Source of the DNA: Nitrosomonas sp. | GTDB lineage: Bacteria > Pseudomonadota > Gammaproteobacteria > Burkholderiales > Nitrosomonadaceae | Reading direction: 5' to 3' | Length of the DNA stretch: 32,942 nt | Assembly: GCA_021774055.1 (NCBI GenBank) | Contig: JAJFJL010000096.1 | Location: forward strand, 1 to 32,942 | Part shown: positions 124-32,942 of the stretch, in pieces | Numbering within the stretch: the first letter of the stretch is position 1 | Layout of the letters: each line of letters opens with the position of its first letter | The notes under the pieces: generated by a model | The model's input: only the letters and a program-made list of their open reading frames with translations | What the model was told of the DNA's origin: nothing | Database searches by the model: none | Position numbers and translations under genes: made by a program

Positions 124-3100
124 CTACCCCAAAAGCTCATCAATTAATTTTTTTATCCGTACCACACGTTTTGCTGTTTCTGGGATTTGCACATCAATTT
201 TTATTTTATCAGGACCAGATAATACATATTCGTTATCTTGTTGTATCAATTTGATAATATTTGCTGAATCAATCGGTGGGTCTGGTATAAATTGTATTTG
301 TAGATTGTCATCACTGGCATCAATACGTGTAATTCCTAATGGTTGCGCAGCGATACGCAAGTAATGACTATCCAATAGTGTTTTAGATTGATCAGGTAGA
401 AGGCCAAAACGATCAATCAATTCTCGATGCAGTTCATTTAATTGATCGTTATCTGTGCAACTAGCTAAACGTTTATAAATAACTAAACGTTCGTGAACAT
501 CACGACAATAACTTTCTGGCAATAATGCAGGGGAATGTAAGTTAATCTCAGTTGTTATGCCCAATGGTTGCTGCATATCTGGTTCTCGTCCTTCTTTTAG
601 AGATTTTATTGCAGCATCCAACATATTGTTGTAGAGACTGAAACCAATTTCTTGCATTTCACCACTTTGTGAATCACTTAGAACAGCACCCGCACCTCGA
701 ATTTCTAAATCATGCATGGCTAAATAAAAACCAGCGCCAAGTTCTTCCATTGATTGAATAGCTTCTAGTCGTTTTTTAGCTTGCGTTCCGATGGCTGATT
801 CTTCTGGTGTTAACAGGTAAGCGTAAGCCTGGTGATGAGAACGACCCACTCGGCCACGTAGTTGATGTAGCTGCGCTAAGCCAAATTTATTTGCCTGGTT
901 GATAATGATTGTATTCGCACTAGCGATATCAATCCCGGTTTCTATGATTGTGGTACAAAGCAGAATATTAAAACGTTGTTGATAGAAGTCACGCATAACA
1001 TGTTCCAATTCACGTTCGCGCATTTGTCCGTGGGCAATATGAATCCGTGCTTCAGGTAATAATTTAGTAAGTTTTTCATACATATGATTGATGGTATTAA
1101 CTTCATTATGCAGAAAATAGATTTGTCCACCACGTTTTAATTCACGTAAGCAGGCTTCTCGAATAGTTCCTTCTGAGAAACCACTCACAAAAGTTTTAAT
1201 TGCTAGTCGTCGTTGTGGTGCGGTAGCAATAATTGAGAAATCACGTAATCCTTCCAGTGACATTGCCAATGTACGTGGGATAGGAGTGGCTGTTAACGTT
1301 AGCACGTCGACTTCAGAGCGTAGTTTTTTTAATTGTTCTTTTTGACGCACACCAAAGCGATGCTCTTCATCAATAATAACTAATCCCAAATTTTTAAACT
1401 TAACACTTTTTTGAATCAGCTTGTGGGTGCCAATAACAATATCAATTTCCCCGCTGGTTAATCCAGCGAGTGCCTTAGTTTGTTCTTTAGCGGAACGAAA
1501 ACGTGATAATTCTGCAATTTTTACTGGCCATTGTTCTGCAATTAGACCAAAGCGATCTGAGAAATTCTGAAAATGTTGTTCAGCTAATAATGTTGTTGGT
1601 ACTAATACCGCAACTTGCTTGCCATCAGCCGCAGCGATAAAGGCTGCGCGTAAAGCTACTTCTGTTTTACCAAAACCAACATCACCGCAAATAAGGCGGT
1701 CCATTGGTTTGCTAGAAGTTAAATCTTTGATTACCGCTGTAATAGCAGCTGCTTGGTCTGGCGTTTCTTCAAAACCAAAACCTTCTGCAAAGGCATTATA
1801 GTCATGTTGTTGCAGACCGAATACATGGCCTTTGCGGGCTGCTCGTTGGGCGTAAAGATTAAGTAATTCAGCAGCAGTATCGCGGACTTGTTGCATCGCT
1901 TTGCGGCGAGCTTTGTCCCATCTGCCACTACCAAGCTTATGTAGTGGTGCAGTTTCTGGTGATGCACCACTGTAACGCCCAATAAGTTGTAACTGTGAAA
2001 CTGGCACATAAAGTTTATCGCCACCGGCATACTCTAGTGTTAGAAACTCACTCAACTGGCTAGAATCACCTCCACCACCCAGGTCCATACTAATTAAACC
2101 ATGATAACGACCAATACCATGTAGCTCATGTACAACAGGATCACCTGCTTTAATTTCTGATAGATCACGTAATATAGCATCGGTAGATGTTGTTTTACGT
2201 GATTCTCGTGCGCCCTTACCATGCATATGCGCGGCATAAAGTTCTGTTTCTGTAACAAAAGCAATATGTTCAGCAACGCTAATAAAACCATTATGTAGCG
2301 GTGCAACTCCAAGCATAAAAGACTGATCACTGTCGAGGAATTGTGCATAATTATCACAATTTTCTGGATACAAATTATATTGATTCAAATATTCTGCAAT
2401 TAATTCACGCCTACCAATACTTTCTGCTAGCAATAGCAAACGACCATTTGACGGTGTAAAACTGGCAATAAATTCAGCAAACTTTTCTACCGGGTTTTCT
2501 GCATGACGATTAACCTGAATTGACGGCAATTTGTTGATAATTGGTTCTACCGCTAGATCTTTATTTTCATCTTTCAGGGCAATACGTGCGTAAGGCTTTA
2601 GTTTGCCAAAGAATACATCACTACTAAGAAATAATTCATCAGGTGGTATAGGAGGGCGAACTTTATCGGCACGTAATAAATTATAACGAGACTTAGTGTC
2701 ACGCCAAAAATCGTCTATTATTGATTGAACATCATGATGTAAACAACACACGGTGGTTGCTGGCAAATAGTCAAATAAAGTGGCGGTTTGCTCAAAGAAC
2801 AACGGTAAATAATATTCAATCCCAGCAGGCGCAATACCTTTGCTAACATCACTATAAATTCTACTTTTGGACGGGTCACCTTCAAACCTTTCACGAAAAT
2901 TGCTGCGAAAACAACTGCGCCCAGCATCATCCAACGGAAATTCACGAGCCGGTAATAAACGAATCTCATTAACCGGAAAAATACTACGCTGCGTATCTAC
3001 ATCAAAAGTACGCATAGTATCAATTTCATCATCCAGTAAATCAATACGGTAGGGCAGTGAGGTGCCCATTGGGAACAAATCAATCAATCCGCCTCGAATG

Positions 3101-26456: not shown

Positions 26457-28823
26457 ATGAATGTTGCATCAGCATCGACAAAAGAACAGACCGGCAATAT
26501 GCGTGACGAATTAGATTTTTCTAATAACCTTCGAATGGTTACTAATAAAATACATGCTGCCAGTGCAATTGACGAAATTATGTTAGAAGTCAGCAAAGAT
26601 ATTTGTGCTTTATTTAATGCCGACCGTTTGACGGTTTATTCACTTAGTGAGGACAAAAAGTCAATTACATCCAGAGTTAAAATTGGCATAGATTCATTCC
26701 AAGATATAAGTTTTCCTGTTACCGAACAGAGCATTATGGGTTATGTTGGTTTAAATAAGAAAATAGTTAATTTAGAAGATGTTTATAACAAAAAAGAATT
26801 AAGCAAGTTAAATGCAAATTTACGTTTTTCACACGAAGTCGACAAGCTAACAGGATATCGCACCAAACAAATGCTTGTAGCTCCTATATTAGATGCAGAC
26901 AAGCAAGTATTAATGGGTATTGTTCAAGTCATTAATAATAAAGAAGATGATCAGTTTTCTGAAAAAATAGTAGCAGGCATTGGTAAAGTTTGTGAAACGC
27001 TGGCGATTGCTTTTAAGCAGCGTCAGAAACCTAAGTTATTACCAACATCTAAATATGAAGGTTTGATTTCTAATGCGGTTATCTCTGCCTCTGAATTTGA
27101 ATCAGCAACTCGTAGCGCACGTGAAAAAGGTTGCGATCTAGAAGAAGTGTTAATTAATGATTTAAAAGTTAAACCTGCATTAATTGGTAAAGCATTATCT
27201 CTATTCTTTGGGGTTAAATATGAACCTTATAAGCCTGACCGAATTAAGCCGGTATATTTACTAAAAAATTTGAAACGTGATTATGTTGAAAGTAATGCCT
27301 GGATACCTATTGATGATATTAAAGATGGTTTGGTAATACTGTCTCTTGACCCAGAAAAAATAAAGTCTCAACGAATTGTCAATAATATTTTTCCAAAACA
27401 TAAGGTTACTTATGTGGTTTGCACCAACCAAGAATTTAAAGCAACACTAGACTTGTTTTATGGTGATGAAATAGGGGATACCGGCAATATTGATGACATG
27501 CTGTCTGGTCTTACCGAAATAGAAGAAGAAGTTGCTGACGAAGAAGATGAAACCTCAGCAGCATCTGAGAATGAATTAGTGAAGCTGGTGAACAAACTGA
27601 TTATTGATGCTTATAAGATGGGGGCTTCTGATATCCATGTTGAGCCTTATCCAGGCAAAGAAAAAACTAAAATTCGTTTTCGCATAGACGGTTCGTTAAT
27701 GCCTTACGTTGAGATTCCTTCTGGTTATCGTAATGCACTAGTAACACGAATTAAAGTTATGTGTGATCTAGATATCTCAGAGAAACGTAAACCACAAGAT
27801 GGCAAAATAAGATTTAGAAAATATGGCCCATTAGATATTGAATTGCGAGTGGCAACAATGCCGTCTGCGGGCGGTTTGGAAGATGTTGTTATGCGTATCT
27901 TAGCATCCGGAGAGCCTATTCCACTGAATAAAATGGGTTTTACGACACATAATGAGCAAGCACTTGAAAAAATAATCAGTAAGCCTTATGGCTTGTTCTT
28001 TGTCTGTGGTCCAACCGGGTCAGGAAAAACAACAACCCTGCATTCAGTTCTGAAGCATATTAATCGTCCAGAAACAAAAATATGGACCGCTGAAGATCCA
28101 GTTGAAATTACCCAAAAAGGACTACGTCAAGTCCAAATAAATAACAAAGCTGGGTTAACTTTCCCGCTAGTAATGCGGTCATTTCTACGTGCAGATCCTG
28201 ACGTTATCATGGTGGGAGAAATGCGTGATAAAGAAACTACTGCTATTGGTATTGAAGCTTCACTTACTGGTCACTTAGTATTTGCAACATTACATACCAA
28301 CAGTGCTGCCGAATCAGTAATTCGTTTATTAGATATGGGTATGGATCCATTCAACTTTGCCGATGCTTTATTAGGTATCTTGGCACAACGTTTAGCTAAG
28401 CGCCTATGCAAATGTAAAAAAGCACATGTTGCCAGCAAGGATGAGATTGAACGGTTATTAATTGAATATTGTGAAGAATTAAAAAATACTGATCGTTTTA
28501 AGAGTGACTCTGATGCCGCTTATGAGGAGATTCGTACCAATTGGGTCAAGTTGTATGGTAATAAAAAAGGAGAACTCACATTATACAAGCCAGTTGGTTG
28601 CGATAACTGTGTTAATACTGGCTTTAGTGGTCGTGTTGCATTACATGAATTATTAACTGCGACAGCTGTATTTAAAAAGAATATTCAAGAACATGCCCGT
28701 GTTGCGGAAATGGTGGCTACAGCATTAGGTGATGGCATGCGTACACTAAAGCAAGATGGCATAGAAAAAGTGTTACAGGGGATAACCGATATCCATCATG
28801 TGCGGGTGGTGTGTATTAAGTAG
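26457..28823 (+). CDS. GAF-domain GspE/PilB-family secretion/pilus ATPase
   Basis: This hexameric ATPase would power assembly of a type II secretion or type IV pilus-like filament. The 788-residue protein has an N-terminal GAF domain (about 25-180), an MshEN-like domain (about 190-335), an acidic linker (EIEEEVADEEDE, near 357-368) and a T2SSE ATPase domain. Visible motifs are Walker A GPTGSGKTTT near 519, LRADPDVIMVGEMRD near 580, the His box TGHLVFATLHTNSA and the zinc cysteines CKC near 652 and CDNC near 715; the first pair is CxC instead of the usual CxxC. No inner-membrane platform or pseudopilin gene is adjacent. The GAF domain suggests control by a small ligand, perhaps linked to the hydrolase before it. 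Confidence 0.9.
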   Translation: MNVASASTKEQTGNMRDELDFSNNLRMVTNKIHAASAIDEIMLEVSKDICALFNADRLTVYSLSEDKKSITSRVKIGIDSFQDISFPVTEQSIMGYVGLNKKIVNLEDVYNKKELSKLNANLRFSHEVDKLTGYRTKQMLVAPILDADKQVLMGIVQVINNKEDDQFSEKIVAGIGKVCETLAIAFKQRQKPKLLPTSKYEGLISNAVISASEFESATRSAREKGCDLEEVLINDLKVKPALIGKALSLFFGVKYEPYKPDRIKPVYLLKNLKRDYVESNAWIPIDDIKDGLVILSLDPEKIKSQRIVNNIFPKHKVTYVVCTNQEFKATLDLFYGDEIGDTGNIDDMLSGLTEIEEEVADEEDETSAASENELVKLVNKLIIDAYKMGASDIHVEPYPGKEKTKIRFRIDGSLMPYVEIPSGYRNALVTRIKVMCDLDISEKRKPQDGKIRFRKYGPLDIELRVATMPSAGGLEDVVMRILASGEPIPLNKMGFTTHNEQALEKIISKPYGLFFVCGPTGSGKTTTLHSVLKHINRPETKIWTAEDPVEITQKGLRQVQINNKAGLTFPLVMRSFLRADPDVIMVGEMRDKETTAIGIEASLTGHLVFATLHTNSAAESVIRLLDMGMDPFNFADALLGILAQRLAKRLCKCKKAHVASKDEIERLLIEYCEELKNTDRFKSDSDAAYEEIRTNWVKLYGNKKGELTLYKPVGCDNCVNTGFSGRVALHELLTATAVFKKNIQEHARVAEMVATALGDGMRTLKQDGIEKVLQGITDIHHVRVVCIK

Positions 28824-29097: not shown

Positions 29098-29556
29098 TTA
29101 GCAAATTGCGCCGGCGGCACGTGTGGTGCAGCCACCTGTTTTAACCCAAGCTACAGCTCCCGTAGCAGCTGTGTACGTTGGAGTAAGTATCATAGTGTCT
29201 GCTGCTACGACACCATTTGCCGCAACAGGTGTAGCGGTTATTACACCGGCACCACCTACTACCACGGAAGTTACTACAGCTGTAGCAACAAGCATATCAT
29301 CTGAAACCTCAATGGCCGCACGAGCGCCCGTAGCCGCTACGGCAACAGCATCAGCAGCAGCATTTAAACAATTGCCAGTTTGTATGCATACCTCAATACT
29401 TGTTTTATATGGTGTTGTCGCACTAACAACTTCTGTATATCTTGCTTTTACCATGTAATTTTGATAAGCAGGAACCGCCACTGCGGCCAAAATACCAATA
29501 ATCGCTACAACGATCATCAATTCAATGAGTGTGAAACCTTTTTGTGCTTGTTGCAT
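29098..29556 (-). CDS. pilA: Type IV pilin (PilA-like major pilin)
   Basis: Type IVa pilins polymerise into surface fibres for twitching, adhesion or DNA uptake. The 152-residue prepilin has a short basic leader ending in KG, cleavage before Phe8, the conserved [20 protein letters not shown] helix with Glu at mature position 5, and YQNYMVKAR. The C-terminal disulfide loop is [10 protein letters not shown]; another Cys pair is CIQTGNC. The globular part is unusually rich in Ala, Val, Gly and Thr with few charges. AAGGAG sits 8 nt before the ATG. A sigma-54-type promoter lies upstream. No other pil gene is adjacent, apart from the GspE/PilB-like ATPase on the opposite strand. Confidence 0.93.
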
Positions 29557-29627: not shown

Positions 29628-29762
29628 GAAATTAGTTTTGATAAAAATATATTGTGGAGTTCTGGGGACACAATACTTAATTTCAGACAATTCAATATGC
29701 TGCCTCAATAAGTATTTTAAGTTAGAATGTGACGCTTAATTATTTGTAATGTGAGAAGAATT

Positions 29763-30332
29763 ATGGATACGAATCAGCCTACCTATAACGACATCTTAAG
29801 ACTTTTTCAAGAAACTGACCGTAAATTCCGAGAAACCGATCTTAAATTCCAGAAAACAGGTCGTAAATTTCAAGAAACACAACGTGAAATCAAATTAGTA
29901 AGTGAGTCTATCGGTAGATTGGGCAACCGTTTAGGTGATTTTGTCGAAGAAATGGTTAGGCCCGCTGTAGTACGCTTATTTCAGGAGCGTGGCATTGATG
30001 TTCATGAGGTACATCGTGGAGTTGAGGCTCGCCGTGGTAGTGACGAGATTGAAATTGATTTGCTAGTCGTTAACACAACGGATGTAGTGGTTGTTGAGTG
30101 TAAAAGTATGTTAAGCATTGATGATATTAAGCATCATTTAACAAATTTAAACAAGATAAAAAAGTTATTGCCCACATATTCAGAGAAAAATGTAATGGGC
30201 GCGGTGGCGGCTATGGTGCTGCCAGACAATGTCGGTCGTTATGCTTATAAGCAAGGATTATTTGTGATAGCACAATCAGGAGATCATTTGTTAATCCGCA
30301 ACGATGATAAATTCAAGCCTAATATTTGGTGA
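29763..30332 (+). CDS. PD-(D/E)XK nuclease-like protein with heptad N-terminus (DUF3782 type)
   Basis: The 189-residue product has two parts. Residues about 12-60 are charged coiled coil with a seven-residue repeat (FRETDLKFQKTGRKFQET). The rest looks like a PD-(D/E)XK core: GDFVEEMVRPAVVRLFQERG, then EIDLLVVN with an acidic residue, and VVVVECKS with the E-x-K pair. Such proteins are widespread in cyanobacteria and some proteobacteria, and their function is not established. A GTG four codons upstream is possible, but GAGAAG before the ATG at 29763 favours the ATG. It stands alone between the pilin gene and the chaperone-like operon. Nuclease activity is inferred from motifs only. Confidence 0.78.
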   Translation: MDTNQPTYNDILRLFQETDRKFRETDLKFQKTGRKFQETQREIKLVSESIGRLGNRLGDFVEEMVRPAVVRLFQERGIDVHEVHRGVEARRGSDEIEIDLLVVNTTDVVVVECKSMLSIDDIKHHLTNLNKIKKLLPTYSEKNVMGAVAAMVLPDNVGRYAYKQGLFVIAQSGDHLLIRNDDKFKPNIW

Positions 30333-30537
30333 ATTCAGCACGCTAAGAAAGAGTTATGGAACTCCAGAATTCGCTGTGTGCAGAGGAACGCTGAGTAGAT
30401 TGAATAAGTGAGTCTTAATCCAGCATTAACGGTAAGATCAACCGCACGCAGTAGTGCCTCCATTAAACTTGATTGCTGGGGTATTGATTAATCTCAGTTA
30501 GGGCTGATACATGCCCCCAAGGCTTTAGAATTACAAA

Positions 30538-31002
30538 CTAATTTGTTAATGAATTAAGTACAGTAATCACCTCGGCTTTTCTTAGAGTGACATTGTTCTG
30601 ATTGTCAATGTAACCATTCTTAATAACAGAAAGGATTACTTCATTCTCCATATCAGTAACCTCTTTAGTATCAATTATTTTACAATAACCCATCTTAGCT
30701 TTATTTTCTGGAAATTTTATTTGAGTGATATTTCTAGATTTAAGTAAACGTACAATTTTTTTATGCAGGATACGGGTACTTTTTATGTAGTTTCTAGATG
30801 TTTTATCTAAGGTGTGCTCTTTGTCTTGTAGTGATTCATCTAGTCTTTCGAATATATCCAAGATATCAAATAATTCTTTATATAAATCATGTTCTTTAGT
30901 TTTAAAGGATTCTTCTTGATTCTTAATAGTATTGGTTAGTTGCGCAATTTCCTGCTGAAACTGAGTTAGTTTAACTTTTAAAAATTCTTTTGCTTGCTTC
31001 AT
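30538..31002 (-). CDS. Diverged GrpE-like nucleotide exchange factor
   Basis: The 154-residue product has the GrpE layout: a long coiled coil (about 1-50), a helical segment LYKELFDILDIFERLDESL like the four-helix dimer region, and a C-terminal beta part (MGYCKIIDTKEVTDMENEV and ITVLNSL) like the Hsp70-contacting wing. It is clearly diverged from housekeeping GrpE: the region before MGY is short and the usual GY-x-L wording near the end is changed. The ATG overlaps the stop of the J-like gene (ATGA). It is the last gene of the operon. GrpE assignment is moderate; a plain coiled-coil protein is the alternative. Confidence 0.72.
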   Translation of the reverse strand: MKQAKEFLKVKLTQFQQEIAQLTNTIKNQEESFKTKEHDLYKELFDILDIFERLDESLQDKEHTLDKTSRNYIKSTRILHKKIVRLLKSRNITQIKFPENKAKMGYCKIIDTKEVTDMENEVILSVIKNGYIDNQNNVTLRKAEVITVLNSLTN

Positions 31003-31274
31003 ATTGTTTCATCAAAACAGGATAATCTCTTTAAATCATTAGTAGCTGACGTTGTATTATTTGGTCGTTCAGGAAGTTGGTTGCATGAGCTTGGTATTTC
31101 TATAAAATTAATAAAGTCATGACTTGCTTTAATGACTGGATTCATAAGTTCTTTTTGAGCAATTGCTATTTCTTGAACGGAATATTCCTTGTTTCGCATT
31201 GCCAATGTAACAGCCTGAATAATCTCCTTTTGGGTCATACCCCTGCTAGCATTCAATACCTCATATGGATTCAT
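30999..31274 (-). CDS. J-domain-like small protein without HPD
   Basis: The 91-residue product begins MNPYEVLNASRGMTQKEIIQ, which resembles helix I and the start of helix II of a J-domain (xYYEVLGV...). Where the HPD signature should be there is RNKEYSVQE, followed by a helix-III-like AQKELMNPVIKASHDF. Without HPD it should not stimulate an Hsp70 ATPase in the classical way; it may be a J-like adaptor. The C-terminal 30 residues are polar and probably disordered. GAGGAG lies just before the ATG. It lies 2 bp after the TPR gene stop and overlaps the GrpE-like gene by 4 bp. Confidence 0.7.
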   Translation of the reverse strand: MNPYEVLNASRGMTQKEIIQAVTLAMRNKEYSVQEIAIAQKELMNPVIKASHDFINFIEIPSSCNQLPERPNNTTSATNDLKRLSCFDETI

Positions 31275-31276
31275 TG

Positions 31277-32942
31277 CTACTCCTCAAGATCTTGTAATAA
31301 CTCATGAATTTCATCCACTAGAAAATGATCTGGATCTAAGCTTACAGTCCAGTCATAACATTCTTTTAGAAAGAAAATCCTCTGGGTATTTGTGTCATAC
31401 CAATGAGTTCCATTAACAATAGCTTCTATCCACTGAAAAAAATTATTTTTTACTTCTTGGTGCTTAGTTTGGCGCGCCATGGTACATGCCTTGTTTATTT
31501 TATGTCTATCAAAAAGATCATCCATTTTTTGGATTTCTAATTTTATTTCAAATAGTTCTGCTCCTTTTATGGCTAATGCATTATCTGGATCTAACTGTAA
31601 TGCTTTTTTAAACATTACCTGCATTACTTTATTACTGACGCTCTTTTCATTGTTTACTAGTATCGCTGCACGTGTGCTTATTACCATTGAAAGAAATTTA
31701 CTTATAGATATAGATGGATGCTTCTTATGCAATGCAATTAAAAATTCTTCATAATGAAATAATATATCTGCATCACTGGGTGTAAAAGATCTGTTTGTGA
31801 ACTCTTGTTCTTGAGATGGACTAATTTCAAACCAAGCTATTGCTGCATTAATAAGTCGTTTAGGCCATTCTTTGCCATTATCTAAACAATGTTTCCCATA
31901 GGCAAAATTTACTTTATGCCTGCCATATTCTTCGAATTTATTCCTTTCTGTAACCTGAGGCAAACAATCAATAGCTTCTTCATATGCTTGTTGTTCCATT
32001 AGGTATAAACTTGGCATGGCTAACGAGTAATAACTACCAGTTCGCAAACTGCTTTCTTTATCATTAAAGTCTGTTTGATGTTCTTGAATAAAATCAAGAA
32101 TCTGATCTGATTTATTTAATTGTTTGGCGATTCTAGGTGTGCAAAGTAAATCAGTAAAAGATTTTTGATCTACAAATAATGAATGCAGGTTATTTAATAA
32201 TGATTTTTCTAAATTCCAGATAGAGCGTTCTTTTTCTGTATTTACTGATTTATTGATTAATTCTTCCGCCATACAGAGTAATTTCTGGCGTATCTTAATT
32301 TCTTCTTCTTGAGGAATTGACTGATCCAATTTAAGATTAAATATAGCACTTAACCAGTACAGGCAAAGACCTGATATATCACCATTTAATTCAGCCAGTT
32401 TGAAGCTTGTTTTTGCGTATAAGTTTATTGTTAGGTTATTTGTTTCGGGTGGTGCATTATTAAGCAGTATTTTAATTTCCGCATACTTTTTATTTTCCCA
32501 AAGTTCTTCAACCAAGGTGTATTTACAATAATCTACTAAATTATCAAGATTATGATTTGTAGATGATTCCTGAAGATATATTGCTATTTTATAGGTTTCA
32601 GTAGCGTCTGTATTTTGTTCTAGTCGATCATAAAGATTATCTAGCAATAGCGCTTGGGTGTTGTTTTTTTGTGATAAAAAGCTAACATCTTGAGATTCAA
32701 GATGTTCCCAATTTCTTAAGCATTCATAATAGTTACCTGTTTTTGCTAAGCTAAAACCAAAGTTATAACTAGCCTCACAATCTAAAGTGTCTAATTGTTG
32801 AAAAGCTGTAATAGCTTGTTCATAATTTTCAGCTTTAACTAAACAGCAGGCTTTTCTTGATAATATCGCTTGTTCTGAATGGATAGCAAATGCTTTCTCA
32901 TATTGTGTTGCTGCTTGCAGGTACTCACCAGATGCTTCAGCA
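31277..32942 (-). CDS. TPR-repeat protein, N-terminus beyond the window
   Basis: The frame is open to the right edge with no stop, so at least 554 residues are visible and the true start lies outside. A TTG at 32647 is an internal codon, because upstream sequence continues the same helical repeat pattern (YLQAATQYEKAFAIHSEQA, YEQAITAFQQLDTLD, YYECLRNWEHLE). The protein is a series of tetratricopeptide-like helical pairs, including KKALQLDPDNALAIKGAELF. No membrane segment is visible. It precedes the J-like gene by 2 bp. Its place before J- and GrpE-like genes suggests a substrate or Hsp70 docking scaffold. Confidence 0.8.
   Translation of the reverse strand, partial: AEASGEYLQAATQYEKAFAIHSEQAILSRKACCLVKAENYEQAITAFQQLDTLDCEASYNFGFSLAKTGNYYECLRNWEHLESQDVSFLSQKNNTQALLLDNLYDRLEQNTDATETYKIAIYLQESSTNHNLDNLVDYCKYTLVEELWENKKYAEIKILLNNAPPETNNLTINLYAKTSFKLAELNGDISGLCLYWLSAIFNLKLDQSIPQEEEIKIRQKLLCMAEELINKSVNTEKERSIWNLEKSLLNNLHSLFVDQKSFTDLLCTPRIAKQLNKSDQILDFIQEHQTDFNDKESSLRTGSYYSLAMPSLYLMEQQAYEEAIDCLPQVTERNKFEEYGRHKVNFAYGKHCLDNGKEWPKRLINAAIAWFEISPSQEQEFTNRSFTPSDADILFHYEEFLIALHKKHPSISISKFLSMVISTRAAILVNNEKSVSNKVMQVMFKKALQLDPDNALAIKGAELFEIKLEIQKMDDLFDRHKINKACTMARQTKHQEVKNNFFQWIEAIVNGTHWYDTNTQRIFFLKECYDWTVSLDPDHFLVDEIHELLQDLEE

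Follow-up and report, generated by a model that had tools for sequence, protein, structure and literature searches.

What do the three tightly packed genes at the right edge of contig JAJFJL010000096.1 from a Nitrosomonas sp. encode, and to which larger system might they belong? The contig, here called the window, comprises 32,942 nucleotides (C252:1-32942) of a 3.07-Mb metagenome-assembled genome (MAG), which is 84% complete. On its minus strand it carries, in reading order, the C-terminal 554 amino acids of a putative TPR scaffold protein (31277-32941), a J-like protein of 91 amino acids without the HPD motif (30999-31274) and a GrpE-like nucleotide exchange factor of 154 amino acids (30538-31002). 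A preliminary description of the window had proposed a private chaperone system with an Hsp70 gene immediately beyond the right edge at position 32942. With a probability of roughly three in four, these genes are the end of a five-gene operon for a self-contained Hsp70 machine tethered to the inner membrane, the first two genes of which are located on another contig, C12. The private system is thus supported and had been understated, as all five genes are conserved together.

The described layout of three minus-strand open reading frames (ORFs) is found in the sequence, with the TPR gene stopping 2 bp short of the J-like gene, which is preceded by GAGGAG and shares the 4 bp ATGA with the GrpE-like gene. 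The start assigned to the TPR gene, on the other hand, is no true start, as the gene is open at the window edge and seems to run on into another contig. The arrangement is not due to chance, since 33 of the 52 loci retrieved by Hsp70 motifs alone show this order again.

A profile search of the host's own genome identified one Hsp70, on C12, besides an MreB-type protein. The minus strand of this contig (locus L006) encodes the Hsp70 of 785 amino acids (C12:1739-4096; Pfam HSP70, 343.6 bits), a zinc-ribbon/transmembrane (TM)/LysM protein of 272 amino acids (C12:360-1178) and a 108-residue N-terminal TPR piece which runs off the contig start (C12:2-325). The anticipated Hsp70 gene therefore exists on the same strand, but not immediately adjacent, as the gene for the membrane protein lies in between, and the cluster reads Hsp70, zinc-ribbon/TM/LysM, TPR, J-like and GrpE-like. 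As an exact overlap of 6-300 bases between the two contig ends is missing, both TPR pieces were aligned separately to homologues in order to test the join. The piece on C12 aligns to residues 1-108 of three of them (L032, L042 and L080) and the piece in the window begins at residue 117 of nine (L032, L034, L039, L040, L042, L045, L051, L052 and L080), so that approximately eight residues fall into the gap. From the gene order and the split TPR gene we infer that C12 precedes the window.

The survey of co-occurrence suggested earlier was conducted on the contigs of 84,980 species genomes and keyed on Hsp70 motifs only. Among 106 stretches that matched the motif pattern, 52 encode a relative with 40-73% identity in the best segment, a lower bound because the scan depends on particular peptide motifs. 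Searched with the five proteins, all 52 of these loci gave an Hsp70, 45 the membrane protein, 41 the TPR protein, 36 the J-like protein and 38 the GrpE-like protein. All five genes are found in 33 loci, each time on a single contig, in a single order and on a single strand, at intergenic distances which range from overlap up to 711 bp. Where at least 6.5 kb follow the Hsp70 start, 28 of 31 loci hold the complete set, and the remaining three (L078, L081 and L082) are divergent or reduced. By record names, 39 of the 52 loci are of the Deltaproteobacteria/Desulfobacterota type, including Desulfonema magnum, Desulfobacter latus, Desulfamplus, Desulfotignum and the cable bacteria Electrothrix and Electronema, with the isolates Desulfobacter latus AcRS2 and Desulfonema magnum 4be13 among them. 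The other 13 derive from Spirochaetales, Elusimicrobia, Schekmanbacteria, Verrucomicrobia, Cloacimonadota, Victivallales, Kiritimatiellia, Eubacteriales, a Legionella MAG, three further proteobacterial MAGs and one record named 'bacterium'. At the level of sequence, the parts and their order are thus conserved across phyla.

For the GrpE-like protein the assignment is solid, as the match to Pfam GrpE (E 8.8e-10, 38.9 bits) exceeds the cut-off of 25.8. Pfam GrpE is equally matched by 25 of 25 aligned family members (E 0.01), and the family profile matches the GrpE of the solved DnaK-GrpE complex 4ani (E 3.3e-8). As a second, much stronger GrpE (125-184 bits) is encoded, besides weaker ones, in all 10 locus genomes examined, the operon copy is by sequence a dedicated one, predicted to promote nucleotide exchange on its partner Hsp70. 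The profile search found neither another GrpE nor another DnaK-type Hsp70 in the host's own MAG, most likely due to an assembly gap and incompleteness. The Desulfonema magnum genome (L034) has seven matches to the GrpE profile, two of them inside long frames of 908 and 1194 amino acids, suggesting further GrpE fusion systems.

Assignment of the 91-residue protein is less direct. The window copy is weak by sequence, with 12.8 bits (E 0.13, residues 2-21) against Pfam J, under the cut-off, and no match in NCBIfam, and the J-like profile retrieved coiled-coil designs with weak J hits from the sequences of solved structures. The AlphaFold2 model, with a mean pLDDT of 92-97 at residues 1-50 and 84 at residues 51-60, nevertheless finds its best structural matches in J domains, and the family profile aligns with five ordinary J domains at an hhalign probability of 90, leaving a 10-residue gap over the HPD loop. 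HPD occurs in the J region of none of 37 J-like rows; the ORF of L057 does contain the letters HPD, but beyond the J domain, near residue 67 of its J-like part. The assignments made earlier consequently hold as GrpE by sequence and as J by profile and predicted fold, the latter without the HPD, and a standard J-activation role is therefore doubtful. A TM-like stretch is present neither in the window J-like protein nor in 35 of 36 relatives. Elsewhere in the MAG (L012, contig C173, ORF 1486-2568, plus strand), a protein of 360 amino acids carries two tandem J domains.

The host's Hsp70 retains the nucleotide-binding domain (NBD) motifs GIDLGTTNS, GGGTFD and PAYFND, with small variants in the relatives shown, and a substrate-binding beta-sandwich is present C-terminally in the predicted fold, followed by nine helices in the model of the L032 protein. 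It scores under the NCBIfam DnaK equivalog cut-offs (312.4 bits versus 648 and 305.8 versus 822.55), and the DVLLLD-type interdomain linker, present as DVLLLD or DVVLLD in 11 of 11 ordinary DnaKs, is found in 0 of 45 family Hsp70s. Most members have a zinc ribbon at the linker site, with its cysteines kept in at least 90% of 33 aligned C-terminal parts. A C-terminal tail pattern fits 43 of 45 proteins, a descriptive count as the pattern was chosen after the tails had been inspected; a first, narrower pattern fitted 20 of 44. Of 46 rows of the membrane protein, 44 fit the zinc-ribbon pattern and all 46 have a membrane-like stretch; when L075, L081 and L083 are left out, each of the 43 remaining rows has a single stretch of this kind. 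Pfam LysM is detected in the host's own protein and, at E 0.01 or better, in seven of 10 chosen relatives, five of which are over the Pfam cut-off. The TPR matches of the window piece are all weak and under the Pfam cut-offs.

Beyond the parts themselves, we infer operon transcription, formation of a complex, membrane tethering, a client and a role at the envelope. The five genes would give rise to one transcript, and the membrane protein would hold the machine at the envelope, with its LysM domain on the peptidoglycan outside and its zinc ribbon placed in the cytosol on account of its cysteines and of the soluble Hsp70. The TPR protein may scaffold the machine, perhaps by holding on to the conserved C-terminal tail of the Hsp70 in the way that Hop binds EEVD. 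The Hsp70 would bind and release clients with ATP and be reset by its own GrpE, and the J-like protein, because the HPD and the canonical DVLLLD linker are both missing, might position or restrain the Hsp70 instead of setting off hydrolysis in the usual manner. Its probable clients are proteins that are exported or belong to the envelope; alternatively, the machine may watch for envelope damage.

Several points weigh against such a machine. The assignment is built on sequence and predicted folds, and the contig join is a probable one, the host genome being a MAG. Genes are separated by 100-700 bp in some loci, so a single transcript is not certain everywhere. The LysM domain goes undetected at E 0.01 in three of the 10 relatives scanned, and charge bias clearly favours neither topology, with lysine and arginine in excess on the N side in 24 of 43 membrane proteins. 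The Hsp70s of L076, L077 and L078 have no zinc ribbon, which is therefore not essential. Finally, no recurring neighbour points to a client: among 346 neighbouring ORFs no family occurs in more than five of the 52 loci, a weak negative as many contigs are short.

Compared with known systems, the cluster shares with DnaK-DnaJ-GrpE an Hsp70 with NBD, beta-type substrate-binding domain (SBD) and helical region, a GrpE homologue and a J-fold partner. It differs by the absence of the HPD from this partner, by the missing DVLLLD linker with the zinc ribbon in its place in most members, by the extra TPR and membrane proteins and by the nine helices that follow the beta domain when the L032 protein is modelled. 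The closest functional analogy is the mitochondrial PAM motor, composed of mtHsp70, Mge1, Pam16, Pam18 and Tim44, because Pam16 is a J-like subunit without HPD. Both would have an Hsp70 held at the membrane, a GrpE dedicated to it and a J-like subunit devoid of HPD; an HPD-bearing Pam18 counterpart is, however, missing among the five genes, a TPR scaffold stands in place of Tim44, and no translocase-like family is constant beside the loci, a secY-like ORF having been noticed by eye at L036 and L046 only. In these two related genomes, a ribosomal-protein and secY-like cluster lies approximately 0.4-9 kb upstream of the Hsp70 gene.

In Myxococcus xanthus, the gene for MxDnaK2, which is SglK, is adjacent to a second GrpE gene. 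MxDnaK2 is likewise a specialized paralogue of DnaK, and its genome encodes two GrpE homologues, but it is treated as a DnaK homologue, with no ribbon, LysM or J-like operon described in the available part of that source (PMC11019930). Escherichia coli HscC, according to the accessible text of PMC8215388, is a specialized Hsp70 thought to be active at the plasma membrane with the membrane-bound DjlB/DjlC, tail-anchored J proteins, and is said to be without GrpE signature. The present system would likewise have a membrane-bound partner, whereas the five-gene cluster encodes a GrpE and its anchor would be the separate zinc-ribbon/TM protein and not the J-like protein. As the same text distinguishes three prokaryotic Hsp70 types, DnaK, HscA and HscC (PMC8215388), the Hsp70 described here, which shares one cluster with a J-like protein, a GrpE, a scaffold and a membrane protein of its own, seems to be an additional type that is complete in itself. 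Among the published gene sets met, the GAP1-N2 GTPase systems come closest; the sections consulted report for them accessory HSP70 and GrpE, proteins of the J or TPR type, zinc ribbons and domains binding the cell wall (PMC7159879). These are built around a GTPase core, whereas no neighbour family, and so no GTPase, GAP1 or effector, was seen to be constant on the flanks, of varying length, of the five-gene loci. In the open-licence PMC literature searched, no description of the five-gene set was recognized, subscription journals being mostly outside the search.

A more far-reaching proposal, which we consider rather unlikely, is that the system represents a bacterial Hsp70 motor of a new class, which is anchored in the inner membrane, possibly also on the cell wall, and works without HPD-type J activation. 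The HPD and DVLLLD, which between them form the canonical contact of J protein and Hsp70, would have been lost together and replaced by the HPD-less J-like/TPR module and zinc-ribbon docking, making the machine a bacterial counterpart of the Pam16/Mge1/mtHsp70 import motor that acts at the envelope on polypeptides. The family offers a natural test of whether an Hsp70 cycle can be controlled without HPD and hydrophobic linker, and its hosts include cable bacteria as well as other sulfate reducers, named isolates among them.

Of the rival explanations, a stress-type paralogue of DnaK-DnaJ-GrpE, an additional cytosolic copy that serves general folding and to which the membrane and TPR proteins are accessories, is the most probable but still unlikely. 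The ordinary ATPase motifs and SBD fold of the Hsp70 and the clear homology of the GrpE would be expected of such a copy; the consistent absence of HPD (37/37) and of the linker (45/45) would not, and the membrane gene is detected at 45 of the 52 loci, contig ends having cut off some of those that remain. Moreover, L006 has no exact sigma32 consensus and no CIRCE within three mismatches, weaker promoters not being excluded by this search.

More improbable still is a module of biological conflict, in self/non-self recognition or phage response, in which the chaperone would serve as threshold device akin to the Hsp70/GrpE-bearing GAP1-N2 systems. Besides the shared accessory domains, among which the accessible sections list J/TPR fusions (PMC7159879), and the kinase-like ORF added in L081, the distribution fits such a module. 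In an even sample of the Desulfonema magnum phylum, two of 395 genomes, centre included, pass E 1e-200, where the rows listed score no more than two candidates for any genome; the system therefore looks sporadic, and among relatives of the host it is found in one of 101, its own. However, the neighbours show no constant GTPase or effector, although many flanks are short and were not profile-scanned for GTPases, and PADLOC matched neither the Hsp70 and LysM proteins nor the J-like and GrpE-like ones, nor the window piece of the TPR protein. Least probable is a redox- or metal-gated chaperone whose Hsp70-linker and membrane-protein ribbons are cysteine switches releasing the machine under oxidative stress as in Ruc/Hsp33, since despite the conserved ribbons and the many hosts which we take to be anaerobes, three family Hsp70s are devoid of the ribbon and zinc ribbons are often mere docking modules. 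Its precedent is Ruc, described in the part of the source available as coordinating zinc, being activated by oxidation and partnering with Hsp70 (PMC7448276).

As to the origin of the membrane-tethered Hsp70 system in Nitrosomonas, horizontal gain is the simplest reading of the sequences, since tested genes of both contigs are typical of the genus, yet the TPR piece was detected in one of 101 related genomes, the host's own. Likewise, the Hsp70 C-terminal part was found in one of 300 and the Hsp70 at E 1e-90 in one of 369 genomes, in each case the own. In the host-phylum sample, 106 of 398 genomes pass E 1e-62, all but the own with at most 230.4 bits, like ordinary DnaK, the own copy scoring 1718.8. 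Of 61 genomes, 60, the own among them, gave a genus match to the pilB-like gene in the window, and the same count was obtained for the peptidase gene on C12, with the best-scoring other genome at 77% for each. The his-tat gene order points to a betaproteobacterial host. Contamination, considered as an explanation, is unlikely with one tested gene per contig typical of the genus. In the Hsp70 tree, the host's copy falls into an unresolved part with 20 rows, which points to no donor. No empty site was found, the two tested flanking genes being apart in the single-contig relatives listed (62 kb in G053, more than 2 Mb in G006). Plasmid Hsp70 hits (254 records) were discarded, as the listed rows are DnaK-like and, of the three examined (H3, H14 and H15), the two translated are ordinary DnaK; the viral contigs searched yielded no relative.

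Some loci depart from the standard arrangement. In the proteobacterial variants L077 and L078, which have a short membrane protein (185-192 amino acids), the J-like domain is fused to the TPR protein. In L082:272-1502 of the Legionella MAG, an N-terminal Hsp70 piece of 326 residues runs into a GrpE-like C-terminal piece of 96 residues, which is a reduced or misassembled copy of a variant locus. L081:1-9207 of the Eubacteriales MAG is a related but different cluster with, several identities being by eye, the kinase-like ORF, a weak GrpE match, an Hsp70 with two zinc ribbons, a J-like/TPR fusion and a zinc-ribbon/TPR/TM/LysM-like protein. Among neighbours (for example L061:6514-8274 and L050:1771-3000, both minus strand), two that recur resemble, by eye, an MsbA-type ABC transporter (five loci) and a LolC-type protein (three loci), both envelope genes, at varying distances and likely by chance.

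In the window itself, no terminator-like site was found at 30250-30600, and an Rfam scan gave no match. Convergent with the GrpE gene, a protein of 193 amino acids with weak matches to DUF3782, a Card1-like endonuclease and NERD is encoded at 29751-30332 on the plus strand. Further away, a type II/IV secretion ATPase whose N-terminal part carries GAF and MshEN domains (26457-28823, plus strand) is located near a pilin gene (29098-29556, minus strand).
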